Shown: positions 6,811-51,264 of the stretch, piece by piece
How the letters are laid out: every line of letters begins with the position of its first letter
Position numbering within the stretch: the first letter of the stretch is position 1
IMG/VR virus record: IMGVR_UViG_3300012950_000002
Location: 1-61,133 of that record
Source: a virus
Strand: one strand, 5' to 3'
Length of the DNA: 61,133 bases
Program-made: the position numbers and the translations under genes
Notes under the pieces: model-generated
Databases searched by the model: none
What the model was told of the DNA's origin: nothing
Seen by the model: the letters and a program-made list of their open reading frames with translations, nothing else

Positions 6811-6846
6811 TTGTAAGTAACGCTAGCTAGTCACTGGTCTCTTGTT

Positions 6847-6854
6847 TATTTATG
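6847..6854 (-). promoter_or_regulatory. late-promoter-like NATAAATA motif upstream of the fibre gene
   Basis: The minus strand reads CATAAATA, 37 bases upstream of the fibre ATG and immediately after the terminator hairpin. T4 late promoters use TATAAATA, and T4-like cyanophages are described with NATAAATA. The position between a terminator and a start codon makes a functional late promoter likely. Confidence 0.65.
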
Positions 6855-6858
6855 CTAC

Positions 6859-6882
6859 AAAAAAGAGTCCCAGAGGGACTCT
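6859..6882 (-). terminator. intrinsic terminator after the 2454-aa protein operon
   Basis: On the minus strand AGAGTCCC, loop TCT, GGGACTCT is followed by a run of T. The stem is 8 bp and perfect (6864-6871 paired with 6875-6882) with a three-base loop, and the opposite strand has six A from 6859 to 6864. It lies just after the stop codon at 6887 and just before the next promoter motif. Confidence 0.9.
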
Positions 6883-6886
6883 AGGT

Positions 6887-21285: not shown

Positions 21286-21293
21286 TATTTATT
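21286..21293 (-). promoter_or_regulatory. late-promoter-like AATAAATA motif before the YHYH-Ig gene
   Basis: The minus strand reads AATAAATA and overlaps the stop codon of the giant gene. It lies 11 bases before the ATG at 21275. This is very close to the start for a promoter, so transcription from it would give a very short leader. Confidence 0.4.
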
Positions 21294-24200
21294 GGAATAT
21301 TTGAGTTGGTACGAAGTTAGAAATAACTGTTGCACCAGTCTGTACCGAAAGGATTACAGAGTTAGAGTAAACAGGTGAAGCACCAGCAGCGGTTATCGCT
21401 ACACGGAACTCATCACCATCGTCTGCCTGTTCAGCAGAGTCAGTAGTGTAGACACTAGACGTAGCACCTGTTATGTTTGCCCATATGGTCTCACCATACT
21501 CCTTACGCTGCCACTGGTAGTTCAGAGGAGTAGTTCCTACAGAACCATCAGATGCAAGATTAAACGTACCGAGTACAGTAAATCCAGCCATTTGACCTTG
21601 GTTAACTGTTACGTTAACAGGTTGAGCAGTTATGGTGATATAACCATCAACAATTACGATTGGGTCACCATTAGAGTCAGTACCCTCACCTGCGTAGGTG
21701 TCATAACCACCGTTCATAGCAGGTCCTGTAGGTGGAGTCCAATCATCCTCAACAGTGTTGTGGATAGAAACTTCTGGTTGTGCGTAACCAACACCAGCAG
21801 TCTTAACATCAATCCTCAAAAGACCCATTAGAGCACGGACACGACCATCAAATCCAGAAGATGATATAACATCAACGTTTGGACGTGAGGTGTAACCATC
21901 ACCAGGAGAGGTGATAATTGATGTTGTCATTTCACCAGAGGTTATTTCAGCAAGTGCTTCAGCACCACGACCCTTAACAGTTCCTGTATACTCGAAGGTG
22001 ATCAAAGAGTTAGAAGACTCAATTAGAGCAACTTCACGATTCTCTCCTTCTCCATCAATTTGTAGTAAGTCACCTGCCTCAATTGGAGGTACGACTGTTG
22101 CTGCAATAACGTCTGCGTCAGAACCAATGTAAGAGAATGCAACGAATGTTGATCCCGCACGAGGAACTTCAGCGAAGATGATACGTGAACCAACTAGCTC
22201 GTAACCTAGTCCAGGTTCCTGTATAACACCATTCAGAGAAACAATAATGTTGTTTTCTGGAAGTATAGTACTAGAAGAAACACCTTCAGTCAGTGTCAAT
22301 GAGTAGAATCCACCAGCGTACCTAAGGTTAAAGGATGAACGTAAGGAGTCAAACTCAAAGCTGATATCATCCAACTGTCTAAGTTTACCAACGTAGTATC
22401 CAATGAACTCAGAACCGACTGTAGGAGGTTCAGTGAACTGAATCTGGTCAGAGAATGCTGTATATGCTTGTGTACCGCCTGGAGGTTGTAGAACACCATT
22501 AGTGAAGCACAACAAGTGACCAGCAGGATCAGGGAAATACGCTTCTCCGTTATTTGTAGTAAGTTTAAAGGATGTCTGTGTGCCATCAAATCCTCTGAAG
22601 AATCTGTTGCAACGTCCGACTAGACCCTTAGATTGAGTAACACCAGCGTACCAACCAGCATCAGACTTAATTGTAATATTGCTTGGGAAATCTCCTACAA
22701 CATCTTCCAACCAAATCCTACCTGTGTCACCAGTAATCTCTTTACCAGAGACCCTACCATAAGAATTGTAGTCAGTAACTGTTATATTACTCATCTCAGC
22801 GAGGATAATTGGGAAGTTATTGAGGTTCTCAAACTTACCAATTGCAGTACCACCAGAAGTTAGATCATTAGGATCAGGTGTTACAGTCTCGAGCTGAGAG
22901 TTAGTTCCATATGGTCTGAGGTTTGCAATCCACATCTTATGTGGGATGTTAGGAGTAACACTATCATCAAATGCTTGATACTTAGTGACAACAGCAGTGA
23001 ATCCTGGTTCCTTAATGGTAGTACCTGCGAGGAGGTAAACTAGATCACCAGCAGCAAAGTTTCCTGCATATCCACCATCACGAATGAGGCTATTTACATC
23101 ACATTCTATCTGCGATTCTGCATGTACGTACTGGTTAAGAGTTAGTTCTTCGAATCCAGTAGCAGTGATGTATGCTATATCAAGTATCTTATCAGTGATA
23201 GAACCGTAGATAACGTCACCATCAGTAAAGTCATCTTGGATAGTTTCGATATCAATAGTGATACGTCCACCACTATTACCTACAAGAGCACCAGCGGAAT
23301 TTTCGTACTTAACAATATCTGCTTCAGCACTATTACCTTTGTTAAAGATCTTCTCATCTGTATTAAATGCACCTCTAGAGGTGTTAATCAACATACGTTC
23401 TGTAGGAGATCCATTAACAGCATTAGTGATTCCACTAGTTACACCCTCTAATACATCATTATCAGAGAATGTTCCATTCATATTCTCAACATATATCCAA
23501 CCTTCAGTGGTCGTATCACCTGTTAATACAGAAGTCTGAACAATAACACCGTTGTTAGTTGTTGCACCCTGTACTTGTACAGTTTCACCATTAGTAAACC
23601 TACCAGTTGCTGCGTCTATATTAAACTTCTTATAGAGTTTAACGATATCTGCTTCATTGTTCATTGTGCGAACAACCTCAGCAGCAGCATTAGAAGTAGA
23701 TCCAACCAGATAATCAGCAGTGTTAAATCCAGCACTAATTGGTTGAGAATTATCTCTTACAGGTTGAGTCAGTGCTGGCATAGAGATACCAGAACGTACA
23801 ACTGTTTGTAATCTTTGCTGACCGTCTAGAGACTTATCGAATGCGAACTGTTTATATCTTGCGTCATGACGCTTCTCACGAGTAACTTCGAAGTAGTCTG
23901 CCTCAGCATTAAGGACATAGTAGTATGTCTGATCTTGTAAACTAGGATCTAGATCCTGAGAAGCAGGAACGTATGCGAGAACATCACCACGTGAGAAGAA
24001 GTTAGGCTTATGTACTGTTACAGTATTCTCTCTTCTCTCAAATCCAACCTCAATAGTTGGAGTTAGTAGAATTAATTCTGGATCAGTATTATAATCTTCA
24101 CCTTCATTGTAAAGATTAGTCATATTGGTAATATCAGTGCTATTGATATAATCAATCTTATTGGTGGAAGGTGCTTGAGATCTATTCAGTGCATGATATA

Positions 24201-27200
24201 CAAGGTTAATAGAACTATCAATTGTAAATTCTGTAGATTCCTTCTCATACTCAAATCTATTGTTAATAGCAGCAGTATTGGATGGTTCTAGATATAGATC
24301 ATATCCTGCCCACTGTGCATCATTGTTGTAATCATATAGACCACGTTTGACATACTCACGTACACGTGTCACGTAGTAGAGTAAATGTTGTCTAACGACA
24401 TTCTCGAATGCTATGAAGTTACCTTCACCATCAAACCAAGAGTTAACCAACTTAAGCGTACCTTGGTTACCACCTGTATTCAGGTCATACATCAAAGCAG
24501 TTACGACATTCTCAGCAAATGTTATATCTGCTGTAGTGGTTGGATGGTTATTCTGAGTTCTCTCAAATGCCTTAGCAGTAATTGCATGATAATTAAAGAG
24601 TATATGACGTGCACAATGTTTATCAGAATTAGAACCACCACCAAGAGTACTTAACAGTACATCAAAGAGTGTGTCAGTTGCTGATGTTACGTTATAGCAT
24701 GTATATAACTGATAGTTATTGTTAAATCCCCATGGAAGTTCACGTTCTACAGCATCTAAATGACTACCACCACCACCAGATGCCAGAGATATAGTTTGGA
24801 TAACAATATCCATCAATCCTTCGATCTTATCTGCAACACCAACACAAGTGGTATTCCAGTCACCAGAAGTAGCACCATTAGTATCGAAGGTGATACCAAC
24901 ATCACGCATTACCATATCTGGAGCGTACTTAACTGGCCAAATATTTGGTAGGGTCTTACTAATAGTACCGTCAGTTAGACTTGCAGGTGTAGCAATTGCA
25001 TCAGTATACAGACCCATCAAAGATGTAATAGCAGATGCTACGTCAGCACACTTAGGATTAGCAGTATCAGCAGTGATTATGTAATCACCTTGATTGTAGG
25101 GATAGAAGTCAAGGTCAGCATAGAACTTCTGAGCGAAGGTATGACCACCTCTAGGATATGTCTTCTGAGCAGTATTGCCGTCTCTTGTACATGTGAATGT
25201 AAAGGAGTTAGGTGCCAACTTAACAGTAGTTCCTGTTGACAATCCGTGTGCACCAATTGTTAATGCTAGATATCCAGTTGCAGAATCGTATGTTGCATTT
25301 GTTGGAGTATATGTAACGATAGCAGAGTTGCCAACATCGATAGTAATAGTCTGACCAGACTTACCAACAATAGGAATAGGTCTATCGAATGATGGATCCT
25401 TAGCACGAGGATATGTATGATTAGTAGAATAGTTATCCTGTTGACATGTGAAGGTCAAAGAATTAGGTCTAACCATGACAGATTCACCTGCCTTATCAAC
25501 GCAACCATTAGCAATGCTAACCAGTGTATGAGTTGTTGTGTTGGTAGAAGGAACTGTATCTAATATCTGTACATCAAATGTATTTGTTTGTGCATTAGAA
25601 ACTGTTAACCACTTACCAGATGCAGGGTCAGTAACTCTTGGATATGAGTGGTTGCCACCACCTTGAGTACAAGTGAAAGTTAATCCATTATCAGCAATCT
25701 TAATGTATTCACCGTTAGCGAATCCATGACCGTTGATAGTAAGTGTAACGATACCTGTAGTGGGGTTGTAAGCGGCATCAGTAGGTGTTAAACCAAGTGT
25801 AGGACCTTGTAGACTATTAGACCCAATATCAAGTACTAGGTTGCCTGTACCAGCATCATAGGTAGCGTTGGATACGTTAAAGTTAACCTCAGGAGTAGTT
25901 CCTATGTTAGCAGTAAACGTATCAGTTGTATGTGAAATTATAGTTAAAGTTGTTCCTGCAGCAGGATCAGTTGATCTTGGATATCCATGAGTAGATGCAT
26001 TACCATCAAATTCACAAGAGAACTGTATTGCGTTGTTATCAAGTGTGAATGTATTGACGTTAGCTTGCAATCCATGACCAGCAACAGTCAGAGTTAAGCT
26101 ACCAGTTAGAGGGTCATAAGCAGCATTAGTTGGAGTTAACTGAGATCCACCAGTTACATTAACTGAGTTAGATGCAGCAGATATAAATGTATGCTCATAA
26201 TTACCACCAGTTACCAATGCACGTGGTGTAGCAGATACAAACTTGTGAGCATAGTTACCACCAGTAATCAATGCACCGTTAGCAGCAGATACGAAGGTAT
26301 GAGTATACTGATCATTAGGTCCAGAAGCACCAATATCAAGTGTTACTATACCTGAAGGATTCTGTCTAGTAATACCATTAGTGACAGCAGATACAAATTC
26401 GTGCGTATAGTCACCACCAGTGTGTATAGCACCTGTAGTTGCACTTACGAATGAGTGAGCATAATAACCACCACTTATCAGAGCACCAGAATCGGCAGAC
26501 TTAAATCCATGCCATGAGGTGTTAGATGAAGTACCAACATTCATTGTGATCCATCCGTTCTGCTTCTGTATAACACCTCTATGGATGCTATTAGATGCAG
26601 CAGATTGGAATACGTGTGTAGTATTATTAGTGGAAGGAATCTTCTGTAGTAACTGTACACTAAATGTGTTGGTAGTTACATCAGAAACTGGGATATAGTT
26701 GTTATGTGCCCAGTCACGTTGTTGTGAAAGACCATTAGCATCAGCAGATGCAAAGTTGTGTGTATATGTACCACCAGATGTAACTGCATTAGCAGCAGCA
26801 GAAACAAATGAGTGCGATGTAGTGTTAGCAGAAGTACCAACCCATACACTGATGGTAGTATCGGTAACAGCAACAATCTTAGCAGCACCGTTATATACTG
26901 GGTCAGCACCACCAGCAGCGTTCATTGCTGCTCTTGGATATGTGTGCTGAGTAGCATTACTATCCTTATTACATGTAAATGTAATAGAGTTTGCAGCGAT
27001 TCTTACAGAGTCACCAGATGTCTGGATGCAATTAGCAGCAGCACTTACGAAAGTGTGAGCATCAGTATTAGTAGAAGGTGCAGTAGTTAGAACCTTAACA
27101 TCAATCCAATCTGTACCAACTTCTCTAACTTCCATCCAACGACCGCTAAATGGGTCTCTAGTTTGGATACCATTAGATGCAGCAGATACGAATACGTGAG

Positions 27201-42200: not shown

Positions 42201-45200
42201 TAACCACTGCTTGTAGGTCATTATCACTGTACTTAACATCAGTAGCGATAGCAACGTTACCAAATACATCAATACTAATTCCTGCATGATTAACAGACTC
42301 ATAAGTTCCTGTAGGTTGGATAAGCTTAGAGAAATAGTAAGTAGGAGTTGTTGGGTTTGTAGAAAGTTGATTTAAAGCGATCTTAAGGAATGCACAACCA
42401 TAGAATTTGGTTCCATTCCACATATCACAGATAAAGAAGAGATCATTGTACTCATCAATCTGGAAACGAGGACGTTTTACGTCACCACCACTTATAGCAA
42501 GTCTCTTAACATAGTTGAGTTCGATGTTAGCACCATCGTACTCCATTTCACCAAATATAAGGTCATTATTGTCCTGATCAACACCACACCAGAGCATCTT
42601 GTTGTTTCCGATGTAATGGAGTTGCTCCATTCTCTCACCTTCACTATTAGAAGCGAATTTCCTCTTCTCAACAACATCACCAGTGTTATTGATCTGCATA
42701 ACCCAAATATCATAGGCATCTACAGCATTAGTGTCTGTCCAACCACAAATATAGACTCTTTGCTCGTCATCCATGTAGATGTCACCAGCATAGTCTCTAC
42801 GTGTTGCACCAGAGACACCAGCGATCTCTTTCTGCCATCTAACAATACCTTCAGGTGCATTAGCGTTATCATATCCAGATTCGTACTTAGCAATCAAAAT
42901 ATCTGGATTATATGATGCAGTACCTTGAGATTCGGTTTCACCGATCATATACAGAAGATTATTCTCTTCAGATGTCTCATCAAGGTAAATAGACTTCCAA
43001 CGTGCTTGCTTAATGGATGCACTAGGTATAAGGGTTCTATCCCAGACCATTACACCCAAATCGGTGAACTTAGCAAGGAATGCAGAACTATCACCATTAG
43101 TTTGAGTTAATTCACCACAAACATACATGTAACGGTCAGTTGCCATTACAACATCGAATATTTCTATACTTGCAGCGGCTTCATAGTACTCAGACAACCA
43201 ATAGTAAGTTTTCTTGTATTGCTGAGGATGTGAAACTCTAATTTGAGGTGGATTGTCTTCATCATACCCATAACCAGAGTTAATGATGTTAACTTCACCA
43301 ACTTTACCTGTAGTCTCGTCTAAGATGATATTAAAGTTAATATCTTGTCCCTGAGAGGTAATAATCTCATAAGTTGGTGGAATTTGTGTATTGTAACCAA
43401 TACCAATCTGAGTAACGGTAATATCTTCGATACCTGTTACAACAGACATATAGAAACGCTTATTCGTATTATCAGTGATAACTTTCGAATTAACGATGAT
43501 TTCATCCTGTGCAACTAACTCATGCTCAGTTGCAGTCGTAATTTTACCATATGGAATATCATTAATAACTTCTTTCTGATATCCGTTAATAGTACGTCCC
43601 TGAACAGACTCAATAATAGCAGAAGCACCAAAACCGTCGGTTCCTGTATTATCGAAGTATAAAGTGTCATTTACCTGATAAGAAGAACCAGCATTCTCTA
43701 CAACGAATCCATCAATCCTAGCATTCTCAAATTTAGTCGTTGTATCAACTTCGATGTCAACTCTTGACTCAGTAGAGACACTTGGGAAGTAATCATAGAT
43801 TTCTAGAGCAGCTTCTTCAGTTATAGCTTGCAAATCAGCAATTTCAGAAGGTGAAATGATAGCATCACCATCTATATCCTCAATTTCGAAGATAAGAAGG
43901 TCTCCTTCCTTCTCAGTTACAAATGAATCAGATTCTTGGTTAGGTTGACGATCAATATCGATATCAACGTTAGTATATGGATCTCTGAAACGTGCAACGT
44001 CTGCAGGAATGTTTTCCTGTACAGCACTAAGTGAAAGGTTCCATGTGTCAACAACAGAGTTATACTCAGGACCAATAACATAAGGGAATACTGGAACACC
44101 AGCATCTGACTCGTCAATCGTTACAAAGTATGCATATGTACCAGCAGGATAATCTGGAGTCTTACAAAAACGACCATTGTAAGGGTCTAGATCTCCTTGT
44201 TGGAAGGTGTACTTATAATCGTTGATAAAATTACCAGCAGGATATGAGGTAAGAGCTGGGCCGTCAGTTCTAGCTGGAGTGGGGTTGGTGTCAATATCAT
44301 ATACTACTTCTGTCTTAAGTGTGTAAGAAGAACGCATTCTTCTGATACCACTGTTCTGATCTGTTGGATCAATGTAACCATAAGGACCATAAATTGGGTT
44401 ACCATCAAATGCCCATCCAATGATAGGAGAGTGTTCGATATTTGATGGAACTTCTTGGAAATTCTGTGTAGCAGGGTTTAGGAATACATTATCACCAACT
44501 ACATAACGTAGTTCCTTAGGATCTGAGACATGAGCGTATTCGCCACCGTATTGGTTATTAAATCCCGTAAATACATATCCACGAGCAACGTCATACTTAG
44601 ATGCTAAGTCATACTCAACATTCTTTCTCCATTGGTACACATCAGCAGCAAATGTTGCTAACTGACCAATTGCTTCCATTCTAACGGATGTCATACCTTG
44701 TGTATAACCAACACCCTTGTTAGTAATGGATATAGAAATTACTTTACCTTTATCTTCACCAATTGTTCCGATAATAGCAGTTGCTTGAGCACCAAATCCA
44801 TCACCATTGATATAAACCTTAGGTGCTGATGTATAAGCATCACCAGAGTTAATAATAGCGATAGATACGATTCTACCATTAATAACGATAGGTTGTGCTA
44901 ATGCACCTTCACCAGAGTTCAGTTTAATGGTCGGTTTTGAGGTATATCCTGATCCAGCGTTAGATAGGGTCACTGCACTGATTGGACCTCTTACAGAGGC
45001 AACAGCGAGTGCACCAGCACCGTTTCCACCAGTGATTGATATAGTAGGTTGAGCAGTATATCCAGTTCCTGGGTTTTCTACAAGAATTCTTGTTACTCTA
45101 CCGTTAGTAACAACGGCTTGAGCAGTAGCACCAGTACCACCACCTCCAACAATCGAAATTAGGGGTTGTTCTGTATATCCAGTACCTTCTGTAGTAACTT

Positions 45201-48200
45201 CGACTGAATCGAGTGATCCATTAACAGTTACAGTCGCTGCAGCACCTGTACCGCCACCACCAGTGATTTCTAGTGCTGGTTTTGATCCAGCATCATAATC
45301 TTCACCACCACTACTGATATTGATACCAGTTAGAGGACCAAAAGTAACAAACTCGGAAGATTTGTAAGACCAGGCAGAAACACCGTTAACCCATGATCCA
45401 ATTGGACTATTTGGAGCAACTTCTGTTCTTGTGGAGATTGTAGAGACTGTTCTAGGGAAACGAAGCAGTTTACGCTGGTTTCCTGGAATCATAGCAGACC
45501 CAGTGAAAGGACCAACCTTATAGTTGGGCAATCCAGAGGCAGCAACGTAAACGTAATCGTTATTAAAGAAAGAGTTCTGTACGTTAGAGGTGAATAGTGA
45601 AATTACCTCATCAATAGTTGATACTGAAGACTTACCACGGTTCAGGTCAACAGAAAGTAGTATATTACCCTGTGGGACAATTGTCATTGGGGTAGGTATA
45701 CTATAAGAGAAGGAATAGTCGTCTAGACGAGCAGTAACCTCAAATGTACCGTTATAAACAGCAGGGTTTGCACCATAAATGGTAACTTTGTCTTCTACAA
45801 GCAAACCATGGGCATTACCTGTGATAACAGTTGCAGTTTGGTTGTTAAGACCACCAGGAGTGATGCTACTAACGTTAATTAACTTCTTAACGTTGTATAA
45901 CCATGACTGTAGACGCTCATCATCAGCAGTAGAACCTAAAGCAGCAACATTTAACTTATCTCCAGGCAAATAGTAGGAACCACTGTCTTCTAAGACGGTT
46001 GTACCCGCTTCTGCGATACCTAGGACACGTAATTTGACTTCCTCATCAGTTCCTTTGTTAGCATAGACAAAAATGTCCGAATAGATGATTGTACCAGGAT
46101 CCCAATCTTCTACAACGGCATTTTTGGACCTAGTACACTCAATAAACTGGTTTAGTGACTTTTCTTTGTACTGAACGATCTCCTGATCGTTAATAATGAT
46201 GGTTCCGTTCTTTTCGGGCCATCCAATAGTCGAGTCAACGGTAATTATATTCTCTGTAGTCGTTAATGGTTCTACAAGGTCTGTTTTATAAGGAATCTTA
46301 AAGTCACCTGTCAGAGTTTCTTCAGATATTGCTAATTCGTATATAACATCAATTCCTTCGATGATGGAAATGACATTTTCGATCAAAACTGATGCATCTT
46401 TAATATTCTGGTCAACTTCGTCTGCTACCTGCACCAATTGTGCGTTTGTGAGGTTAGCAGGATCACCAGAAATCAGTTGAGCACGTAAAATTGTGTCAAC
46501 AACCCAAGAAGCATCAGATGGTTTGATTAATTCGTCTCTAGGGTAGAAGATATCAACTTCTTCACCAAATAGAATCTTAAATAAGTACTGTGCAGCAGTC
46601 TTCGTACCTTTAGCAAGGTAGAAATCCTTAATTGTCTTAATAACCTGAATCGGATTGACTTGAGTGTAGTCAATATTGATTGTAGGCATGTATTGACGAC
46701 GGAACTTGTCAAATACCTTACTGATAATTTGAGAATCAAGGTTATAAACAACTGCACCAGCTGAATGATTACTTTGAGCAAGTTGTGACTCTTTTGCAAA
46801 GATCTGATTGTTGTATTTGTCAAAAGTGACAACATCCGATACTCCTCTAGAGCACCCATTAAGGGAAGAAGGTTCGTATTCCTTACCAGAAGACAAAATA
46901 GTGAATCCAGTGACTTCACCAAATCCAACATCACAAGATGCCTGTGCTGCTAATGGTTCTGCAACGTAAATCTTAGGTGGTTCAGTTTCTGAGTAACCAG
47001 TACCAAAACTTATGATGTTAATATCAGTAATTTCACCATTAAAGATAGTTGCTGCTGCTTGAGCACCAGTACCACCGATTGATTCACCCAATGAACCCTT
47101 ACGATCATCTACAATATAGACAGAAGGTGCATCAGTATAACCTTTACCACCAGTTAGAAGATTGATATTAGTAACACTACCATTTGCAACCGTAACGTCT
47201 AGAACTTGAGCACCAATTGGTTGTACAACTCTTACTCTAGGTGGTGTTAAGTATCCACGACCTCTATTTGTGATATTAACAGCTACAACTTCACCATCTG
47301 GAGATACTGTACAATCAGCAACAGCATCAATACCACCTGTAGGTGCAGCATCGATGTAAATTGTTGGTGGATTGCTGTATCCTATACCACCATCAGTGAT
47401 TGTAATAGATGCACCATTTAAACGACCCTCACCATCGATGGTGGGATCTGTAAGAATAGCACCACTTGGGTTTACAAAGGTAATAGCAGGTATGAAATCA
47501 TATCCAGAACCTGAATTAGTAATCTTAATAGACGAAACTGTTCCAGTTACATCATCTACCTCAATAGTAGCAATAGCACCAGATCCATTAACCAAATCAG
47601 ATGGTTGTGTGATCTTAACTTTCGGTGGGTTATATGAAGTATAACCTTGACCTCCATTAATTAGTTTTATATCTTTTATTCCAGCGACTAATGTCCTTGC
47701 TGCTGCACCAGTACCTTTTGAGGTGCTAGATGCGATAGCAACCTTAGGAGCAAAGTTCAGTTTATAACCTTTACCACCATCCTTAACGTTAATTGCCTCA
47801 ATTTCACCATTTACACCAACACTAGTAACTGCATGTGCACCAGTACCAAAGGAAGCAGACACATATTCGATAGAACGGATATGGAAATTGTCCTGATTGG
47901 TGATATTGACAAAAAACTTAATTTTACTATTGTTATCAGTTAACACATAGTCAATATATGGTTTCTGAAGGAGACCATTACGGTTGACAATCAAACCAAT
48001 TTCTGAAATTGGGGAATATGGAAGACTCTCATAGCTTAATGCCATGGAATCATCACCAGCAGTATCAAATACGTTAGGATAAGTTAATTCCTTAACGATA
48101 GCATCTGCAAAACCGATATAATATACAATCTGACATGATCCAACTGAGTCAGTACCAATCCTTGCTCTAGGTGGATTAGTAAATGTGATATCACTACCAC

Positions 48201-48744
48201 TAATTGAGTAATCAACACCAGGAATCATGCTGACATTAAAAACTGTAACTGCAAGGTGTTCAGCAGAAACAGGTGATACAGGGGTGCCTAGGAAATTAAG
48301 AGGGAATGTAGTTCTAACTCCATCAAATTCCTGAATTGGATTTTCTAGTTCTTGTCTTTTCTTATTAAATTCTTCTAATGATAGTCCTGGAGTGAGGATA
48401 GCATCAGGACCACGGACTGTGTTCTCGTAATATATTACTTCATTATCGATCATCACAGATCCATCACGATCCATGAATCCATCGATGGATTCTACTTCGA
48501 TTAATGTATTTGTTGTGTCAACTTCTTTAATTAAAACTGTAGTTGATGCTAAGACCTTCTGGTCATACTCATCTAAGTCCAAATAATTGAGAAGATTATT
48601 TAGAATATTGTATGGACGACCTGTCTTCTCTTGAGACTTGTAGTACTCAAATAAGAAATTGACAAATTGCTCATCCTCTTCTCTGATAAAGGCAGGAAGT
48701 TGATTCTCAACCCTATCAGAAATATTTACTGTTTTTGCAAACAT
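21289..48744 (-). CDS. 9151-residue modular baseplate wedge protein in the gp7 position
   Basis: One unbroken frame of 27.5 kb lies between gp6 and gp8, where T4 encodes gp7 (1032 residues). Residues 1-850 look like a T4-like marine-phage wedge protein ('VENQLPAFIREEDEQFVNFL', later 'KDFYLAKGTKTAAQYLFKIL'). In order there follow: GxGY beta repeats (about 300-640 and 1150-1350); a YHYH-like domain without the YHYH motif (about 1420-1560, 'IGWAFDGNPIYGPYGYID'); a propeller-like region (about 1838-2190); a LamG/concanavalin-like domain (about 2330-2530); two CBM5/12-like modules (about 2740-2870); more wedge-like sequence; helical Cys-pair modules; and 23 Cys/YPR modules (about 4540-7870) interrupted by a second LamG domain (about 5140-5320). 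A C-terminal wedge-like part ends in an Ig-like domain (about 9035-9151). It starts six bases after gp6. The virion role is firm. The host-binding role is inferred from the lectin-like domains. Assembly or annotation artefact is unlikely, because the frame stays open and the repeats diverge. Confidence 0.92.
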   Translation of the reverse strand: MFAKTVNISDRVENQLPAFIREEDEQFVNFLFEYYKSQEKTGRPYNILNNLLNYLDLDEYDQKVLASTTVLIKEVDTTNTLIEVESIDGFMDRDGSVMIDNEVIYYENTVRGPDAILTPGLSLEEFNKKRQELENPIQEFDGVRTTFPLNFLGTPVSPVSAEHLAVTVFNVSMIPGVDYSISGSDITFTNPPRARIGTDSVGSCQIVYYIGFADAIVKELTYPNVFDTAGDDSMALSYESLPYSPISEIGLIVNRNGLLQKPYIDYVLTDNNSKIKFFVNITNQDNFHIRSIEYVSASFGTGAHAVTSVGVNGEIEAINVKDGGKGYKLNFAPKVAIASSTSKGTGAAARTLVAGIKDIKLINGGQGYTSYNPPKVKITQPSDLVNGSGAIATIEVDDVTGTVSSIKITNSGSGYDFIPAITFVNPSGAILTDPTIDGEGRLNGASITITDGGIGYSNPPTIYIDAAPTGGIDAVADCTVSPDGEVVAVNITNRGRGYLTPPRVRVVQPIGAQVLDVTVANGSVTNINLLTGGKGYTDAPSVYIVDDRKGSLGESIGGTGAQAAATIFNGEITDINIISFGTGYSETEPPKIYVAEPLAAQASCDVGFGEVTGFTILSSGKEYEPSSLNGCSRGVSDVVTFDKYNNQIFAKESQLAQSNHSAGAVVYNLDSQIISKVFDKFRRQYMPTINIDYTQVNPIQVIKTIKDFYLAKGTKTAAQYLFKILFGEEVDIFYPRDELIKPSDASWVVDTILRAQLISGDPANLTNAQLVQVADEVDQNIKDASVLIENVISIIEGIDVIYELAISEETLTGDFKIPYKTDLVEPLTTTENIITVDSTIGWPEKNGTIIINDQEIVQYKEKSLNQFIECTRSKNAVVEDWDPGTIIYSDIFVYANKGTDEEVKLRVLGIAEAGTTVLEDSGSYYLPGDKLNVAALGSTADDERLQSWLYNVKKLINVSSITPGGLNNQTATVITGNAHGLLVEDKVTIYGANPAVYNGTFEVTARLDDYSFSYSIPTPMTIVPQGNILLSVDLNRGKSSVSTIDEVISLFTSNVQNSFFNNDYVYVAASGLPNYKVGPFTGSAMIPGNQRKLLRFPRTVSTISTRTEVAPNSPIGSWVNGVSAWSYKSSEFVTFGPLTGINISSGGEDYDAGSKPALEITGGGGTGAAATVTVNGSLDSVEVTTEGTGYTEQPLISIVGGGGTGATAQAVVTNGRVTRILVENPGTGYTAQPTISITGGNGAGALAVASVRGPISAVTLSNAGSGYTSKPTIKLNSGEGALAQPIVINGRIVSIAIINSGDAYTSAPKVYINGDGFGAQATAIIGTIGEDKGKVISISITNKGVGYTQGMTSVRMEAIGQLATFAADVYQWRKNVEYDLASKYDVARGYVFTGFNNQYGGEYAHVSDPKELRYVVGDNVFLNPATQNFQEVPSNIEHSPIIGWAFDGNPIYGPYGYIDPTDQNSGIRRMRSSYTLKTEVVYDIDTNPTPARTDGPALTSYPAGNFINDYKYTFQQGDLDPYNGRFCKTPDYPAGTYAYFVTIDESDAGVPVFPYVIGPEYNSVVDTWNLSLSAVQENIPADVARFRDPYTNVDIDIDRQPNQESDSFVTEKEGDLLIFEIEDIDGDAIISPSEIADLQAITEEAALEIYDYFPSVSTESRVDIEVDTTTKFENARIDGFVVENAGSSYQVNDTLYFDNTGTDGFGASAIIESVQGRTINGYQKEVINDIPYGKITTATEHELVAQDEIIVNSKVITDNTNKRFYMSVVTGIEDITVTQIGIGYNTQIPPTYEIITSQGQDINFNIILDETTGKVGEVNIINSGYGYDEDNPPQIRVSHPQQYKKTYYWLSEYYEAAASIEIFDVVMATDRYMYVCGELTQTNGDSSAFLAKFTDLGVMVWDRTLIPSASIKQARWKSIYLDETSEENNLLYMIGETESQGTASYNPDILIAKYESGYDNANAPEGIVRWQKEIAGVSGATRRDYAGDIYMDDEQRVYICGWTDTNAVDAYDIWVMQINNTGDVVEKRKFASNSEGERMEQLHYIGNNKMLWCGVDQDNNDLIFGEMEYDGANIELNYVKRLAISGGDVKRPRFQIDEYNDLFFICDMWNGTKFYGCAFLKIALNQLSTNPTTPTYYFSKLIQPTGTYESVNHAGISIDVFGNVAIATDVKYSDNDLQAVVMSFKYDGTLLKSTNIKDTDDIGFKTRNHVVDNSGDIIIAANKQKPIQTVVNRFDSAPISFAGDIANGAATVTNVSNATSLATGDIVSITSGAGSVTLAAGVKVLTATGTTVTLDTNFGGSGTATGAILSAVDVSGLIEDSSKQANVTTTFSDVTKVLHNTADYKFGSGSIKFSGGPAYIKHASAGITTNWTTSVWSLMEASHASNNPKVEMITIDDALGNAVVVTVDGNAASGNLGKIEMTIAPQGGGGSTTASVGSTYWTTLQDAAFHHWAVVKETPSLGSYTYSVYFDGVQVCTATVATEIGLNDVYVGASKISPAIGNCFLGSIDDLVIEPNSVFTGASFTLPTTQFAITSENSQLNLIKFDRAHDKRGAYSAFPSTTHTKALTFTETTGININSLTNPVITVWAEGSSGLQILDMSDTISTLTPGTYTFTNATHQFASKTSTVPSPLGVKLKVDAIVIPKYYVRDAGFQKIDNVLEFQFNQDILFTKGTILQQYNSSGVVQAFGTIVETPTGTLDNPGLGNKYKIGKMFGNFNDTDLFKNDTGEENIIKDVIFQPERAQAEWLTATAYTTDDQVWSAGKIYKATNTATSGATAPTHEIGNVTDGSVIWQYISAAGPIEVSLLDHPWPTPAEVLWQATKSYALNDLVYFGRQKYKCTTAGVTGSVAPTHTSGTATDGTVVWQWEDLYDPIHAYARFRPYDAEDYRVKILEVYSGSDFIVGDVISLGGSVTTGPKDGDPKIGQINGVSTVKKVEYVVNLDKDIIRSANTRTDLIYCQALSPHRFLAGDILFVEGFTTTQFNGSFFVEEVFSSRDFLYRMRAAADSEPVFYNNAIFNVKISSKHPTLMLVRNHSYVFDMSDASNFGYYLSFSQDNQFKLEYSFNVIERSGTPGLSSNTETPIVNFTIGGEVTNITYYFDPSRTLSSNSPVGTNSFIDVIKTPYDGTFKIAEVVSETEFRFPLEIEPEFNNAEIGEDDQDNPNSYYSTTSTKAIGPINTIKLISPGGFYRKLPIISDIASDRKIEKIKIKNGGTEYAVGVYNQVGIIGDGEGGLCVITVELDVETNSGTITKVQLTDPGKGYTYGIIDVDGITGILGSTLSGSGGELEVVIPDEGTGASVFLTGTEIGKIKTLKNNEFGYGYSHDYTLRPEIAFPVNLQLFNTSILSEIKITDPGAGYTSAPVVVISGGGGTGADAEAIVKNNRLSEIVVKDPGAGYSSQPTVLLKSEFTYVVNLDLNYLQFNFPHGITTGAAIQFRAEDIGSDVGELPKPSSVGLTSLSSNTIYYAIAGNVAGLESDQLRFALTPADSESGNYITFLTQGNGRQVLLTEVFGGKAEAVVETSRFLESEEVFQGETYELANAFGTVSINDGWQIGPKILKVVNPSGTFVKGGKVQGVISRASGIIDNVQIAKGILNIDAITKTSGRFIDDVGKPSEIVQKIQDSYFYQNFSYVIKSQIPINRWKKQILENNHPAGFNMFGQLELTGGKDISGRKIGTEFTKQVNIDEYTNVNQITSFGAAQPIYSTFNNSEVLFRKKRLTNSEEILTSIVKKIDSISDQFDGAKKAFNLTVEGEQIIIKENQMLVTLNGVIQSPGEAYQIVGNQIVFAEAPRPDSKVIYRNVDITVLPIKRLNLTQIGGIFPQIGDVITSKFGNVNSSAKVIDTSTNTVDIIQIIGTTFVNNARVDVSRTGFSAFIGSIDDVNQTTIFKFNETVTKVDLGGDTAIIEETNLDLDGNTDNSLVLSKTSGTAEFETGAYNILLNDVIYSASSKIAAQITGISPYRDPVTSINLAAAVAFEEDQLITGGSSGAQAQVVRLDASANPPVLYYVKKSVADFTDGETVTNQNAVNGVITGEPKLGDVVDTLIINKGSSFFGLVFERLISLSNQNVILDNISETTISPVELNNSANRINADFLDYEEVRSTEIEYSGLSGGTLSVNDVIRSINVTYGNPVSDALNRYKDAARSIRNNRQEIIDFATSQIAIDYPGFYHTGDNEVAQMGRFKDAYRLIQKNKDWIIAKSYAEMIAQYPGTSIPSATKCKRDLGYFIDSLSRDTGWGGTVYTRKLCNMFFPDGSTFQYVNSQANEINYGYGKAYEHMVEALTNTLSGSETIDSVSYTKYNEQSTGGSGGSGITADPSPGDNYGTSGSNATNNGANNCADVTAALNTLWTNVSEVILSASLTDLIDLSEPVALTVLETKCTRDTGYFIDAIADDLDGDGNYYMVEFTKKFFNAEGVSIGLPETQEAITAFNAAKDLCKNAMRNIMYDQTLNTAGYNLNDPTTYSAPYLNSSSTAQYYDPNYSLGSNQGGTNCANVATAIDTLANIATTSFTGAQFTPSAASYTASNGDLVLTIGSHSLTTADTVRIEPNSLVFTCAMDGNTANKTYPRSSDPTYNQQVAITAVGATTITVDVGASPIVNHTVTGATYDPITGFMVLTVGAHTLSVGESIKIATGSLTFSCDQGGTVGTGTYPRATGATTGDGEDYAYDTAIEITAKTDTTITVNVNGGQGAVTNTNAHTFVSATPNGIQSGGNYSHTFVSAGTNSVSEGGGLAYINSLATVTDGTYEEGENIRVYKFAYKDRGGLGFFTPGNTIKGNKSGANFSCKGANSGLRWLYTNALTGAFQNREYITNSKITNVSGASNVTVTPSNATYDAATGHLTITVSAHGFSTGNEVSIAANAIRFTCGMDANATNHDYPRTNDPVANNVRLPIIKTTASTFTVNVGSSPLKHYTPTGVDYQPDTGTMSITIGPNNLNVGEKIRFKPESLVFTCDHDGNATNHAYPRSSDPFYNTSCNIDSIATSTYSVTGSSYKPAKGTLNLTIANHGFSNGEMIKIADNSLTFTCTNDNNATNHTYPRTTDPASYQWLPVSVVDVNTIGVQIGVSPDTSVHTFVSATSNNITKQDGGVIVVNVLSSAPSTNTTLHTFVSGEDAIITGGDYAHTFVSAVSNSFTVYPAKARLTSLDKRSGSNSLVLESNAYLTHDISDVVAFGSGNFTIETWIKAKGVTGGQYLFDLRTSGLSETGSLSLYLDGGSIKLAYNSADVISGSHGISAGTWTHVAVSKTSGITKVWVGGVQVGSDYSDTNTYYERKITIGAAQDGTNFYQGHIDNFIITKGVSKYTASFTPSVVFTINDDVSFSMSNEHPIIMSDKDSYATFTGTTNSAAAAKKVNYSTKEIIVEDVQLSRDEHRRAADMLELNRAWIAETAVNKMKAKYPDLLMPGDTVDGIGPQQGTTFCLRDTQEFILKGIIDDIRYGGNYNSTIAARSYLTAYEGLEHIANEVLQSIYTYRELSPICNYVLTTTSTDLEHYGVDGNGDPIKYTNILRIPNNFSSPISQTIQDEIAVLADEIGDIIGPTGQRFRDGGDMIWKNRDVIAAEAVGWLEATYSKDINGTVYDFYTNPNSNANKCTHEIKTYVLPAIIADLVTGGNSGIRNVTSKFLNANDELYSVDNELSAVLDVYKYVGKLCKHAINNTLVTKGSTAAELGADSYYQDDYHVNEYTELTVYRDDTITIDSEGYNALRTSNDRLLDAADMLERNANVIAWEAVHTMNDLSKYLNFGVPDGSQNCVDDVLDVLSAVVHDIRKGGNSKTWDAASLYLNKEDKSLIQLNGRQHTHQYVRSELDAIYTGGNYDHNFITAATNAVTDDGSNDFTPTNVVYTAGDGKLVITMPNHGLTTSNTITIAEESLTFTCSMDEHASKHLYPRKGDPAYGKSLTITESTISTITVNVGASPIVNYNVSSADYNSVSGDLVMNVGAHTLQPGTSIRFRDGALTFTCDRDDYATEHAYPRISDPVYNTSVNIASVGTTSSTPTGAAYNPSTGIVTLTQNGHGFTGETTASTSDAAYNPNTGIITITSNGHGFAAGDSVKIAGNSLTFTCGFDGDLSNHTYPRSTDPAYNSWLPVLNVTTNTFDVQVLKEIPSSNVTVHSFVSATASNITKANDYVMLDENALSMSCDMGSGAVTKTYPRPQDPAYKAWLPISNVQLNTFDIQILSTIPSTNTNAHTYVSFASNGLKRQTGNITVNVGVAPGEDAAGISVLKLATEMAILTMRNAFGRENLYIFDPEPDPDGDTTPAGGDESLDNVDVESYERNAVKDRFINAADIIERNIRLIAEESIAAALVQYPSLNIPGGNINCVHDLTDFLDSMVWNLRHGGNNKVFHAAEYYVNEGLTHNTEATWITNYARDLALQVMRNESLALNYGRDPAFDTAVPVVSVASTQHTATNASYDAGTGLLTLTVAGHGFSEGNRVNIDDNSLTFTCSMDGNYSNHTYPRLTDQVSQQWLPIISTSTDTFTVNVGVSRIKKFTPTAISYEPNTGNLIMTVGVHDLKVGTNLKIEPNSLTFTCAMDNGATNHTYPRLTDPVHDEPIEIVGITETTVTVNVGTTGITNFDIHDAKFVPNTGVLDINIGAHTFREGESVKLGTSALTFTCAMDSHATDHTYPRASGPGGPDAGYNTSISIDKIGLDTYDITNAGYNAATGVMSVTIPNHGFKGRTTHTPTGVAYTPATGKMIISLANHGFENDDRVKIDQNGLVFTCGMDGHTTNHAYPRNYNSSAPGGEDYAYDKWLHVTNVTQNTFEVNVGSSSNTTDHTFVNSVTNCLTHAGDHVKVCTKSIGFRCSKDSNATIHTYPRQSDPSWDEWLPVTNVAQNTFDIFVGFSGPNDNYTHTFAANTDLTPTNAVYDPNTGKMILTVNDHGMQNGDTIWIEDGAVTFRCGEDSQGSDHAYPRSTVDTFTITAATYDAAAGVMECTVANHGFGDGAMVKFAPGSIKFTCSMDNYDTTHAYPRHDDPVADKWIPVFNTQTNTFQVHVGQSIEKAWTPTVAAYSPTTGVMDLTIGAHSFRAGASLTPSTAAYNPTTGIMRLTIAGHNIAEGEHVKIADNSLTFTCNLDGHSAQKTYPRPSTISHTATAGTTHDPSTGILHINTTSAHNLTNGDWVKFADNSLTFTCGLDGDNSNHTYPRADDPMSGKWVQISNATASEFDVQVLNSIPQSNTSTHVFVSAASNGIQTRDPFSGRWMEVREVGTDWIDVKVLTTAPSTNTDAHTFVSAAANCIQTSGDSVRIAANSITFTCNKDSNATQHTYPRAAMNAAGGADPVYNGAAKIVAVTDTTISVWVGTSANTTSHSFVSAAANAVTSGGTYTHNFASADANGLSQQRDWAHNNYIPVSDVTTNTFSVQLLQKIPSTNNTTHVFQSAASNSIHRGVIQKQNGWITMNVGTSSNTSWHGFKSADSGALISGGYYAHSFVSATTGAIHTGGDYTHEFVSAVTNGITRQNPSGIVTLDIGASGPNDQYTHTFVSAANGALITGGNYAHKFVSATPRALVTGGNYEHTFISAASNSVNVTGGSQLTPTNAAYDPLTGSLTLTVAGHGLQANVNTFTLDNNAIQFSCEFDGNASTHGYPRSTDPAAGTTLTIISHTTDTFTANIGTTPEVNFNVSNATYDAGTGNLVLDIGSNSLQGPTLGLTPTDAAYNPTTGIVTLTINGHGFANGEYIKIADNGLTFTCTQGGGNHSYPRVTDPASGKWLTVSNAQTNTFDVQILDTVPSTNTTTHTLVSIANGCVDKAGESVMVRPNSLTFTCQQDNYSTNHTYPRAKDPSFDRPIPIVGKSGQTITIDVGNSAIVTYTPTNATYDSATGYLALTIGAHGLSTGTTVKLAPNSFTFTCTRDGNTAQKTYPRGGHTFAQKFYADLDFYPYNQGDYIITADTANPKCADVASAITSLMGLYTDAIATPASLTDGTISKTLPNIWPVKYAPDMVMRDVGITFDTNGATSGDWNTTCVGVADKIEGLMDIVIQTISLASGGGGSHLDAVERELPWGFNNNYQLYTCYNVTSATDTLFDVLLSTLGGGSNSDKHCARHILFNYHAITAKAFERTQNNHPTTTADITFAENVVTALMYDLNTGGNQGTLKLVNSWFDGEGNFIAFENVVRQHLLYYVTRVREYVKRGLYDYNNDAQWAGYDLYLEPSNTAAINNRFEYEKESTEFTIDSSINLVYHALNRSQAPSTNKIDYINSTDITNMTNLYNEGEDYNTDPELILLTPTIEVGFERRENTVTVHKPNFFSRGDVLAYVPASQDLDPSLQDQTYYYVLNAEADYFEVTREKRHDARYKQFAFDKSLDGQQRLQTVVRSGISMPALTQPVRDNSQPISAGFNTADYLVGSTSNAAAEVVRTMNNEADIVKLYKKFNIDAATGRFTNGETVQVQGATTNNGVIVQTSVLTGDTTTEGWIYVENMNGTFSDNDVLEGVTSGITNAVNGSPTERMLINTSRGAFNTDEKIFNKGNSAEADIVKYENSAGALVGNSGGRITIDIETIQDDFTDGDVIYGSITDKILDIAYITATGFEELTLNQYVHAESQIECDVNSLIRDGGYAGNFAAGDLVYLLAGTTIKEPGFTAVVTKYQAFDDSVTPNIPHKMWIANLRPYGTNSQLETVTPDPNDLTSGGTAIGKFENLNNFPIILAEMSNITVTDYNSYGRVSGKEITGDTGRIWLEDVVGDFPSNITIKSDAGWYAGVTQSKGLVGRCNRFFRGFDGTQTSFKLTTNNGEAYFPDPAGHLLCFTNGVLQPPGGTQAYTAFSDQIQFTEPPTVGSEFIGYYVGKLRQLDDISFEFDSLRSSFNLRYAGGFYSLTLTEGVSSSTILPENNIIVSLNGVIQEPGLGYELVGSRIIFAEVPRAGSTFVAFSYIGSDADVIAATVVPPIEAGDLLQIDGEGENREVALIESSNSLITFEYTGTVKGRGAEALAEITSGEMTTSIITSPGDGYTSRPNVDVISSSGFDGRVRALMGLLRIDVKTAGVGYAQPEVSIHNTVEDDWTPPTGPAMNGGYDTYAGEGTDSNGDPIVIVDGYITITAQPVNVTVNQGQMAGFTVLGTFNLASDGSVGTTPLNYQWQRKEYGETIWANITGATSSVYTTDSAEQADDGDEFRVAITAAGASPVYSNSVILSVQTGATVISNFVPTQIFQ
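25130..35210 (-). repeat. 23 copies of a Cys/Asp/His-YPR beta module inside the giant gene
   Basis: I count 23 copies of a ~60-110 residue module. Its consensus is 'TPTxAxYxPxTG' (strand), 'TIxxHGFxxGxxVKI' (strand) and 'NSLTFTCxxDGNxxNHTYPR' (the hallmark). Most copies then have 'WLPVxNVxxNTFxVxVG' and 'HTFVSAxxN'. The hallmark F-x-C, Asp three residues on, His or Lys and Tyr-Pro-Arg is kept in nearly all copies, while the rest varies. They lie in three blocks: five copies at about 33330-35210, four at 30100-31320 and fourteen at 25130-29540. Helical Cys-containing modules and one LamG domain separate the blocks. Confidence 0.9.
29560..36340 (-). repeat. helical modules with a conserved Cys alternating with the YPR blocks
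   Basis: At least five related alpha-helical units of about 100-150 residues occur near 36340-35300, 32690-32300, 32120-31780, 31630-31390 and 29920-29600. Their shared pattern is 'RxxDAADMLERNxxxIAxEA', then a Tyr-Pro turn, a Cys in 'xNCVxDVxDxLxAxVxDIR' and 'GGNxxxxxAAxxYLN'. A further Cys-rich helical stretch lies at about 25130-24280. The units separate blocks of beta modules, like spacers in a long rod. Confidence 0.75.
32790..33330 (-). other. LamG/concanavalin-like lectin domain within the giant protein
   Basis: Residues about 5140-5320 contain 'FTIETWIKAKG', 'SLSLYLDGGSIKLAYNSA', 'AGTWTHVAVSKTSGITKVWV' and 'GHIDNFIITKGVSKYTASF'. This is the standard strand order of LamG_3-type domains. 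A related domain lies at about 41160-41760 ('FGSGSIKFSGG', 'HHWAVVKETP', 'FLGSIDDLVIEP'). These folds commonly bind glycans. A surface-binding role in the virion is inferred. Confidence 0.75.
40130..40530 (-). other. tandem CBM5/12-like carbohydrate-binding modules within the giant protein
   Basis: Two consecutive ~55-residue units read 'WLTATAYTTDDQVWSAGKIY' with 'APTHEIGNVTDGSVIWQYI', and 'WQATKSYALNDLVYFGRQKY' with 'APTHTSGTATDGTVVWQWE'. The aromatic spacing (W...Y..D..V...G..Y) is like small chitin-binding CBM5/12 modules. Such modules are frequent in phage tail proteins. Ligand unknown. Confidence 0.6.
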
Positions 48745-50841: not shown

Positions 50842-51264
50842 TTAGGTTCGTTCTAATAGGAACTCGATATTCTGGACTTGTGCTTGACCTACTATTTTAT
50901 ACTGAACAGCAACGTCAATGTCATTAGTAATTGATGAGCTCTCTGGAGCACTCACCACTACTGAAACAGTCTCAACACGAGGTTCCAGTCGTTCTATAGT
51001 ATTCTTAATTTCATCCCGAAGATCCTCTTGTAGGAACACATCAAACGGTTCGAATAACATTTGAGTAACCCTAGATCCAATTTCATTTTGGAAAGGTCTC
51101 TCACCGAAATTTGTAAGCACTAGGTTTCGGACGGACTGTTTTATGGCATTGTCATTAGTAACAGTGCTAAAATCCTTGGTGTTTGGGTTCGCTTTAAATG
51201 AAACAGCGAAGTCCTTAAACGTTCTAGAGAAAAATTTCTCTGACCTAAACCTATAAGCAGGCAT
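50842..51264 (-). CDS. gp25: baseplate wedge protein gp25 (140 aa)
   Basis: Length and motifs fit the gp25/W-like lysozyme-fold family. They include 'NDNAIKQSVRNLVLTNFGER' followed by 'PFQNEIGSRV' and the hallmark EPR motif in 'IERLEPRVETVSV' (residue about 94). gp25 forms part of the conserved wedge core with gp6 and gp53 and contacts the sheath. It is followed directly by gp6, the usual gene pair in contractile-tail phages. The ATG at 51264 lies downstream of a GATAAATA motif. No gp53 homologue is visible in the window. Confidence 0.95.
   Translation of the reverse strand: MPAYRFRSEKFFSRTFKDFAVSFKANPNTKDFSTVTNDNAIKQSVRNLVLTNFGERPFQNEIGSRVTQMLFEPFDVFLQEDLRDEIKNTIERLEPRVETVSVVVSAPESSSITNDIDVAVQYKIVGQAQVQNIEFLLERT

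Follow-up and report, generated by a model that had tools for sequence, protein, structure and literature searches.

The window analysed here, a 61-kb linear virus record of 61,133 nucleotides (IMG/VR record IMGVR_UViG_3300012950_000002), comes from a T4-like marine cyanophage and includes its wedge operon, in which a single gene encodes a protein of 9,151 residues. Sequence comparisons indicate that this giant protein is a homologue of the T4 baseplate wedge protein gp7, with the gp7 core kept in three co-linear pieces and opened at two places. We consider it fairly probable that it is a wedge protein whose gp7 core carries a modular arm for host contact, and six helical modules of the protein appear to be detectable homologues of the phycobiliproteins. 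The opened core, a repeat-counting rule for gene length and, above all, the phycobiliprotein-like modules seem to be what is new. The gene and its core region are laid out as follows:

21289..48744, minus strand: giant gp7-family baseplate wedge protein, 9,151 aa, ATG start, 0 internal stops
48565..48726, minus strand: gp7 core piece I (residues 7-60)
46732..48564, minus strand: insertion 1 (residues 61-671), GxGY beta repeats and an FDG..LNGV..P beta module
46297..46731, minus strand: gp7 core piece II (residues 672-816)
37972..46296, minus strand: insertion 2 (residues 817-3591), about 2,775 residues
37741..37971, minus strand: gp7 core piece III (residues 3592-3668)

Against a profile of six compact gp7 sequences, hhalign placed core pieces I, II and III with probabilities of 90.6 (E 1.3e-6), 98.2 and 96.6, while reversed and column-shuffled controls reached 0.5 at most, and the compact profile itself matched T4-family gp7 (four sequences) with a probability of 97.1. 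Core II holds the motif DFYxAKGT...LFKILFGEEV, which aligns with T4 gp7 733-758, and core III, which has a motif of the HPAG..FG type, corresponds to about 860-897 of T4 gp7. In direct comparisons with T4-family gp7 a narrow core II profile scored 92.5 and a core III profile 65.4, the latter built from 8 of 12 proteins (P-TIM40, P-SSM4, P-HM2 and ACG-2014f, without the exact motif, were omitted). A PDB sequence search put T4-type gp7 first for both profiles (E 3.7e-4 and 4.3e-8), and no other entry fell below E 0.5. By pairwise BLAST, the compact protein of Ochrobactrum phage OC matches Aeromonas Riv-10 gp7 635-912 over its residues 7-311 (E 9e-9) and T4 gp7 733-923 over its residues 92-311 (E 1.6e-6), and BLAST also aligns it with the giant at 8-44 (E 0.004), 703-815 (E 3e-12) and 3567-3757 (E 7e-11). 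Insertion 1 (about 610 residues) enters the core at a single point, and insertion 2 stands in place of about 115 columns of the compact profile.

The gp7 position, which the original prediction had taken from T4 gene order, is thus borne out both by homology (hhalign, BLAST and PDB search) and by the neighbours: the giant starts five bases past the gp6 stop codon, gp25 lies upstream of gp6, and gp8 lies downstream. The gp7-type slot stands directly after gp6 (and gp25) and upstream of gp8, with three genes between the giant and gp8 in the window's clade. The genes found after gp6 in other phages range widely in size, from 503 aa in Stenotrophomonas phage Ps15 through Ochrobactrum OC (631), a Rhizobium phage (867), Melnitz (896), HTVC008M (1,016) and T4 (1,032) to S-RIM32 (3,411), ACG-2014f (4,225), P-HM2 (4,454) and the window's 9,151. 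The compact gp7s (Ps15, pf16, Ochrobactrum OC, Melnitz and HTVC008M) have the same core, contiguous or nearly so, and stand directly after gp6, except for the 523-aa homologue of pf16, whose neighbours are unnamed; unlike the giant, they have neither beta repeats nor phycobiliprotein-like modules. T4 gp7 (Gp7_helical, Gp7_5th and Gp7_6th; PDB 5IV5, 5HX2) resembles the giant in its slot and in the order of its helical core motifs, but it has residues 1-640 ahead of the core as well as domains V and VI, whereas the giant starts at the core, has two interruptions within it and adds about 5,480 residues at its C-terminal end. Expansion of a wedge protein by insertion of other domains, as originally proposed, fits these three co-linear pieces and two insertions, and wedge homology was found in the core with controls. 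Of the wedge-like sequence predicted for both ends and the middle, the parts at the N terminus, 672-816 and 3592-3668 stand and the C terminus does not.

The frame itself is as large as it had been described: one uninterrupted frame of about 45% of the window (27,456 of 61,133 bases, 44.9%) and roughly nine times T4 gp7 (8.9x), with a computed mass of 985 kDa and a pI of 4.66. It is very unlikely to be a misassembly or a chance frame, because the probability of 9,151 stop-free codons arising by chance is about 10^-265 at the base composition of the open reading frame (ORF) itself, because counterpart frames of 9,152 aa are found in the IMG/VR records G001 and G006 (94.3% and 91.0% nucleotide identity to the window), and because dN/dS is low in all bins. 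Against these two records dN/dS is 0.22 and 0.18 overall, and it lies between 0.10 and 0.36 in each 500-residue bin (the final bin holds 151 residues), so that purifying selection acts along the whole length. The other five reading frames contain between 398 and 1,302 stops each over the same span, and misassembly or a chance ORF was rejected on these counts as well.

From at least 599 IMG/VR relatives 80 loci were retained and 40 records searched, 24 of which hold the whole frame, at 6,721-9,581 aa from stop to stop, and 16 of which are interrupted by a contig end. The window's gene is not the largest of its kind, since record G031 has a complete frame of 9,581 aa. Among isolates the same gene occurs in P-RSM6 (8,573 aa), P-TIM40 (7,351), P-SSM4 (7,312), S-WAM1 (6,737), S-SZBM1 (6,619) and S-SSM4 (6,932), and P-RSM6 is the nearest isolate both by core and by C-terminal block. 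The giants of P-RSM6, P-TIM40, P-SSM4, S-WAM1 and S-SZBM1 resemble the window's in the slot after gp6 and in the gp7 core, and the last 951 residues of the window's protein are 54-79% identical to those of P-RSM6, S-SZBM1, S-WAM1 and P-TIM40. All eight pieces covering the giant match phrog_701, the profile of giant cyanophage gp7, from profile position 3 in the first piece to 6134 of 6136 in the last. In GenBank the giants are called gp7 in P-SSM4 and P-HM2, 'baseplate wedge initiator' in S-WAM1, S-SZBM1 and ACG-2014f, and 'virion structural' or 'hypothetical' in the rest; the frame is therefore a further member of a class already named in part. An NCBIfam search of the giant returned one match only, below its cut-off. 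About 75 residues (2241-2317, about 41794-42024) are not matched by BLAST in the co-linear chains linking the window to S-WAM1, S-SZBM1, P-TIM40, G031 and G011, and may represent the gain or loss of a small cassette.

Outside the core the protein is modular. About 5,480 residues follow core III, largely beta repeats of about 85 aa together with six helical modules, a lectin domain and a terminal Ig-like domain; apart from the helical modules, the following features were placed in insertion 2 and in this C-terminal part:

44113..44553, minus strand: YHYH domain (residues 1398-1544), Pfam PF14240, E 9e-29
40417..40509, minus strand: CBM_5_12-like carbohydrate-binding module (2746-2776), PF02839, E 2.2e-5, 24.8 bits, just below the cut-off of 26.2
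33538..35187, minus strand: YPR beta-repeat block 1 (4520-5069), 5 copies by motif
32860..33249, minus strand: Laminin-G/concanavalin A-like lectin domain (5166-5295), PF13385, E 2.2e-13, above cut-off
30196..31233, minus strand: YPR beta-repeat block 2 (5838-6183), 4 copies by motif
25051..29523, minus strand: YPR beta-repeat block 3 (6408-7898), 14 copies by motif
21730..23823, minus strand: C-terminal block (8308-9005), conserved in other giants and unlike gp7
21343..21651, minus strand: putative C-terminal Ig-like domain (9032-9134), phrog_613 'head protein' E 2.5e-11, phrog_4069 'Hoc-like head decoration' E 2.9e-4, 'Ig-like' being our own reading of these two matches

Of the interior blocks that had been described from the sequence, the lectin, the beta repeats and the helical modules were recovered; a beta-propeller at about 1860-2230 and a first lectin-like domain at about 2317-2515 were read from the sequence and have no profile support, and a single-sequence PDB search of residues 1101-2300 returned nothing at E 0.1. 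The YPR repeat is present in 23 copies by motif between 4565 and 7861, and a hidden Markov model (HMM) of it gives 27 hits in the window. Over 29 near relatives with 0-32 hits, gene length follows about 6,766 + 88.6 x repeat hits (r = 0.996), so that nearly all length variation in the window's clade goes with repeat number; the 29 sequences are mutually related, and the HMM, whose training set was 19 copies from the window, includes partial copies among its hits. S-WAM1 and S-SZBM1 have no hits against the window's 27, and the window therefore has about 2,500 extra residues; P-RSM6 has 21 hits. All 294 phage records matching the repeat are Synechococcus, Prochlorococcus, cyanophage or marine by name, and in the 60 of these that were sampled it also occurs in genes annotated as tail fibre, short tail fibre or tail protein of other cyanophages. 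A cysteine lies a few residues ahead of the YPR motif in all 23 repeats (4556-7852), which makes up 23 of the protein's 65 cysteines. A DNA tandem repeat of 54 bp x 2.5 at 26174-26307, inside block 3, possibly reflects recent repeat growth.

A gp7 domain at the C terminus was rejected, since residues 8200-9030 gave a probability of only 0.1% against T4-family gp7. The C terminus does match compact gp7s at 21%, but over the same profile columns as the GxGY beta repeats of insertion 1. By tile matches a beta module recurs at about 130-205, 3730-3800 and 8740-8850, and this recurrence may have given the impression of a gp7-like C terminus.

Proteins of this kind are found in virions. In CsCl-purified particles of S-SZBM1 mass spectrometry recovered 71 peptides of the 6,619-aa 'baseplate wedge initiator', and the same source reports no long tail fibre in S-SZBM1 by TEM or genome, and likewise none for S-WAM1, P-RSM6 and P-TIM40 (PMC9146016); these phages are the window's closest isolates. 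In S-CREM2 the 1,937-aa product of the gene after a gp6-like gene, which is presumably gp7, was reported in virions with 91 peptides (PMC10665884).

The T4 baseplate contains six copies of gp7, packed with gp6 and gp25. We propose that the giant works in a similar way: each wedge would contain one copy, with its core pieces packed against gp6 and gp25 as in T4, while the inserted domains and an arm of about 5,480 residues at the C terminus would project from the baseplate. This arm would contact the host through its sugar-binding domains and so replace the long tail fibres reported missing in the nearest isolates, its reach would be set by the copy number of the beta repeat, and its helical modules, descended from host phycobiliproteins, would either pack the arms together or still bind bilin.

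The helical modules, of about 105 aa each, form one family:

35890..36330, minus strand: module a (residues 4182-4285, with a half copy at 4139-4175), phycobiliprotein-like
35413..35724, minus strand: module b (4341-4444), phycobiliprotein-like
32296..32652, minus strand: module c (5365-5483), phycobiliprotein-like
31777..32136, minus strand: module d (5537-5656), phycobiliprotein-like
31318..31629, minus strand: module e (5706-5809), phycobiliprotein-like
29611..29919, minus strand: module f (6276-6378), phycobiliprotein-like
24343..24621, minus strand: weak seventh module (8042-8134), E 1.6e-8 to the module profile, without the C-x-x-D/E motif

A profile of 28 modules, six from the window and 22 from seven isolates, was searched against 177,635 PDB sequences and found phycocyanin first (E 3.4e-6); among the best 60 of 142 matches at E 10, 58 were phycobiliproteins or phycobilisome components and two were named 'bacterial fluorescent protein'. 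With a matched 10-row profile the best 60 comprised 54 phycobiliprotein or phycobilisome entries by name and six fluorescent proteins, among them smURFP, which was engineered from allophycocyanin; the reversed 10-row profile had no PDB match at E 10. Compared with an alignment of phycobiliproteins from cyanobacterial genomes, the module profile reached an hhalign probability of 94.6 (E 6.4e-8, 71 columns) against at most 0.8 in 11 controls. For that alignment 60 of 119 distinct ORFs were selected by a C-x-R/K-D motif, a filter that the PDB searches do not share, and row L157 was removed from alignment A4 for a stop codon. The contig of one phycocyanin gene (L191) is assigned to a Chloroflexaceae bin (MAG SM1_2_4), probably in error.

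Taken singly, 11 of the 28 modules are matched by PF00502 at E 0.1, mostly from about profile position 24-34 on. At E 0.01 the family matches 14 of 15 cyanophages (S-SSM4 is missed) and none of ten non-cyanobacterial T4-like phages, and among 14 control genomes only Synechococcus elongatus. Its cut-off of 22.2 bits is reached in three cyanophages, by S-WAM2 modules alone (26.6 and 22.2) and by those of S-WAM1 and S-SZBM1 together with their neighbours. In ACG-2014i and ACG-2014e PF00502 matches nothing but a different ORF, perhaps by chance. By the module profile itself (A5) all of the first ten cyanophages are positive, as are five added later (15/15), and none of the ten non-cyanobacterial phages; seven of the first ten had contributed to the profile, which leaves Syn30, ACG-2014f and S-RIM32 as independent positives, and the five additions (S-CAM4, S-WAM2 and ACG-2014e/h/i) were chosen for a beta repeat in a tail fibre or tail protein gene near 22-23 kb. 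The modules lie in gp7 in eight of the first ten, with P-HM2 having them in a second ORF too, and in other giant ORFs only in S-RIM32 and ACG-2014f. In the titles and abstract openings of the open-licence literature matches listed, phycobiliprotein-like modules in phage virions are not mentioned, which does not imply that they are absent from print.

About 70 columns are common to the modules and the phycobiliproteins (PF00502; phycocyanin, allophycocyanin), including the bilin-site Cys and Asp and a Gly-Gly turn; unlike phycobiliproteins, the modules are about 105 aa long and recur within a larger virion protein. Where phycobiliproteins have the cysteine that attaches the bilin, 25 of the 28 modules also have Cys; of the other residues of the bilin site, the Asp three positions on is kept in 26 modules and the Arg in 15. 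The C-x-x-D/E motif is present in six of the seven window modules and in 52 of 64 over 11 giants (G001 being a near-duplicate of the window), and in none of the three modules of P-SSM4 gp7.

What the modules do can be read in three ways, which we rank with structural packing first, bilin binding second and convergence last. Phycobiliproteins assemble as trimers and hexamers, and a slightly better than even chance attaches to the view that the modules are derived from them and purely structural, associating with one another and clamping six arms to the tail or to each other. The homology over about 70 phycobiliprotein columns and the persistence of the P-SSM4 modules without the motif favour this, whereas packing does not need the cysteine that is retained elsewhere. 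A second cysteine is seen by eye in the alignment of about ten modules, and disulfides are conceivable.

The second reading, that the modules are bilin acceptors loaded by phage CpeT and phage bilin reductases, which would make the virion tail a biliprotein, is possible but decidedly less probable, and we hold just as tentatively the full version, a tail with host-derived phycobiliprotein modules carrying bilin made by phage bilin enzymes and attached by phage CpeT. It draws on the conserved Cys and Asp and on the distribution of the enzymes: CpeT (PF06206) occurs in eight of the first ten cyanophages and all five added ones (13/15) and a bilin reductase (PF05996) in five of the 15, including S-SSM4, which is without CpeT, and both are found in none of the ten non-cyanobacterial T4-like phages. 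It draws also on gene neighbourhood. In S-RIM32 cpeT lies upstream of a module-bearing fibre gene of about 4,000 aa with two or three coding sequences (CDS) between, and cpeT is likewise upstream in all five further phages chosen for such a fibre: in ACG-2014i, ACG-2014e and S-CAM4 it is the next CDS, and in S-WAM2 and ACG-2014h two or three CDS separate it from the fibre gene. This test counts as 5/5 and not 6/6 because S-RIM32 itself suggested the link, and the sample is a chosen few, other beta-repeat fibre genes (e.g. S-RIM44, S-SCSM2R) being left out. These fibres have the same helical modules as the giant, with C-x-x-D/E in 28 of 31 modules over the six, and five of the six also have the beta repeat (none in S-RIM32), but they are separate genes, whereas the modules of the giant belong to a gp7 extension.

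Against bilin binding, the cpeT neighbourhood is not general: it is missing beside the module-bearing 3,682-aa ORF of P-HM2, the second such ORF of S-RIM32 (3,505 aa), the 3,973-aa ORF of ACG-2014f and the gp7 genes with modules of P-RSM6, S-WAM1, S-SZBM1 and P-TIM40. P-SSM4 has both enzymes and yet no motif in its modules, and ACG-2014f has modules and neither gene at threshold. CpeT matches in the window's clade are weak, with best E values of 4e-7 to 8e-4 where the six fibre phages reach 2e-38 to 3e-42, and two of seven IMG/VR fragments of this clade, which are incomplete, have one. The motif Arg is kept in little more than half of the modules, and the distributions of modules and of bilin genes are both confounded with host type. 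In PMC10452541 CpeT is reported in 31 of 153 cyanophages and explained by host light harvesting.

Several observations weigh against a gp7 core with a host-contact arm. Compared directly with T4-family gp7, the single giant sequence scores 6.8 and a profile of residues 1-870 scores 54.5, so that of the two profile comparisons to T4 gp7 originally proposed, the N-terminal one gave a weak match and the C-terminal one none; with scores this low, the argument depends on the compact intermediates or on the narrower core profiles. No counterpart of T4 gp7 residues 1-640 or of its domains V and VI was detected in the giant; Pfam Gp7_5th and Gp7_6th were missing from its eight pieces, as they were from S-RIM32 and from the homologues of 896 and 867 aa. 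These two domains are presumably additions of the T4 branch, and the claim is therefore one of core homology, not of the full T4 gp7 architecture. AlphaFold models were unusable both for residues 1-870 (30 sequences, mean pLDDT 53, gp7 core mostly below 50) and for residues 6240-6690 (10 sequences, mean pLDDT 57.5, helical module about 45-56), and statements on function and on fold, including the globin-like fold of phycobiliproteins with its N-terminal helices, accordingly rest on sequence. PMC7029224 says that these phages have no gp7 and use VrlC in its place, and in PMC3037559 gp7 belongs to the core genes of the non-cyanophages but not to those common to all 26 genomes. The peptides of the S-SZBM1 protein cover 13.5% of it and give no proof of an uncut chain (PMC9146016). 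Finally, we infer host contact because of sugar-binding-type domains, of modules common to tail-fibre genes and of the reported missing long tail fibres, and this host-facing part of the original interpretation, which as a whole is partly supported, stays an inference.

A polyprotein cut during assembly into several virion proteins is suggested by the sheer size of the chain, and the S-SZBM1 mass tabulated in PMC9146016 is no proof of an uncut chain either, because it stands beside sequence length and was probably computed. We regard cutting as distinctly unlikely all the same: gene length varies through internal repeats, and core pieces flank the 2,775-residue insertion, so that cutting within insertion 2 would split the wedge core. 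Less probable again is the third reading of the modules, a convergent helical bundle with a chance match to phycobiliproteins. The PF00502 scores in the window stay below cut-off (15.5-19.6 bits for pieces, 17.0 for module f) and S-SSM4 has no match; a single-sequence PDB search of 6240-6800 gave two matches, with a phycobilisome chain (E 0.89) behind another protein (E 0.19); and none of the 375 Foldseek matches that the low-confidence 6240-6690 model had at E 10 reached E 0.001. The best 50 of those 375 nevertheless include 13 phycobilisome or phycobiliprotein entries, which may lend weak support to homology, and a chance match is hard to reconcile with the make-up of the best-60 PDB lists, the silent reversed profile, the cut-off reached in three cyanophages, the ten negative non-cyanobacterial phages and the hhalign probability far above its controls. 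That gp7 was lost to VrlC and the giant is an unrelated structural protein, as the statement in PMC7029224, the domains V and VI undetected by Pfam and a PF23786 (Baseplate_wedge) score of 19.3 bits against a cut-off of 27 might suggest, has very little to commend it given the core homology detected with controls, a PF23786 match above cut-off in the clear homologue Melnitz, and a separate VrlC-position gene downstream of gp8.

The wedge operon runs in the order PAAR, gp25, gp6, giant, a 532-aa gene, a fibre-connector gene (phrog_677), a 616-aa gene, gp8, the VrlC-position gene and further structural genes. Its assigned neighbours are:

50842..51264, minus strand: gp25 baseplate wedge homologue, phrog_261 'baseplate wedge subunit', E 5.2e-49
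48750..50840, minus strand: gp6 baseplate wedge homologue, directly upstream of the giant, phrog_219, E 3.5e-197; tblastn reaches T4-like gp6
14731..16266, minus strand: gp8 baseplate wedge homologue, phrog_438
7362-14726, minus strand: VrlC-position gene, 2,454 aa, phrog_358, downstream of gp8

The gp25 slot carries a gp25 annotation in P-RSM6, S-WAM1 and P-TIM40, the gp8 slot is annotated gp8 in S-WAM1 and P-TIM40, and the VrlC-position gene is separate from giant gp7 by the P-SSM4 annotation as well. The 532-aa gene following the giant (19677-21275, minus strand) has phrog_708, phrog_2885 and phrog_2576 in common with it and a C-terminal match to its Ig-like families, and the 616-aa gene has other PHROG matches in common with it; because of these common matches, modules seem to have been exchanged among adjacent wedge genes. 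Upstream of gp25 lie a PAAR-motif gene (51758-52288, minus strand) and a 2OG-Fe(II) oxygenase gene (56636-57340, minus strand), and at the window's left end a tandem repeat of 129 bp x 2.3 (263-564) lies inside a truncated structural gene of 2,270 aa. The gene S-MbCM7_011 of ACG-2014h / S-MbCM7 (1442-4339), annotated gp7 / wedge initiator, stands in the hub-lysozyme position of its relatives, and its name is probably wrong.

The gp7 homology found here contradicts the statement in PMC7029224 that gp7 is absent from these phages, and it identifies a class of very large T4-like cyanophage genes as gp7 with the core kept but opened in two places. One gene slot thereby spans about 500 to more than 9,100 residues, with growth by a counted repeat in the window's clade. 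The modules with their kept cysteine, together with cpeT at one fibre locus, suggest a new target for the cpeT and bilin-reductase genes of cyanophages. If bilin binding were true, the target of the phage bilin genes would be the virion tail, which would be coloured and possibly light-responsive or photoprotected.

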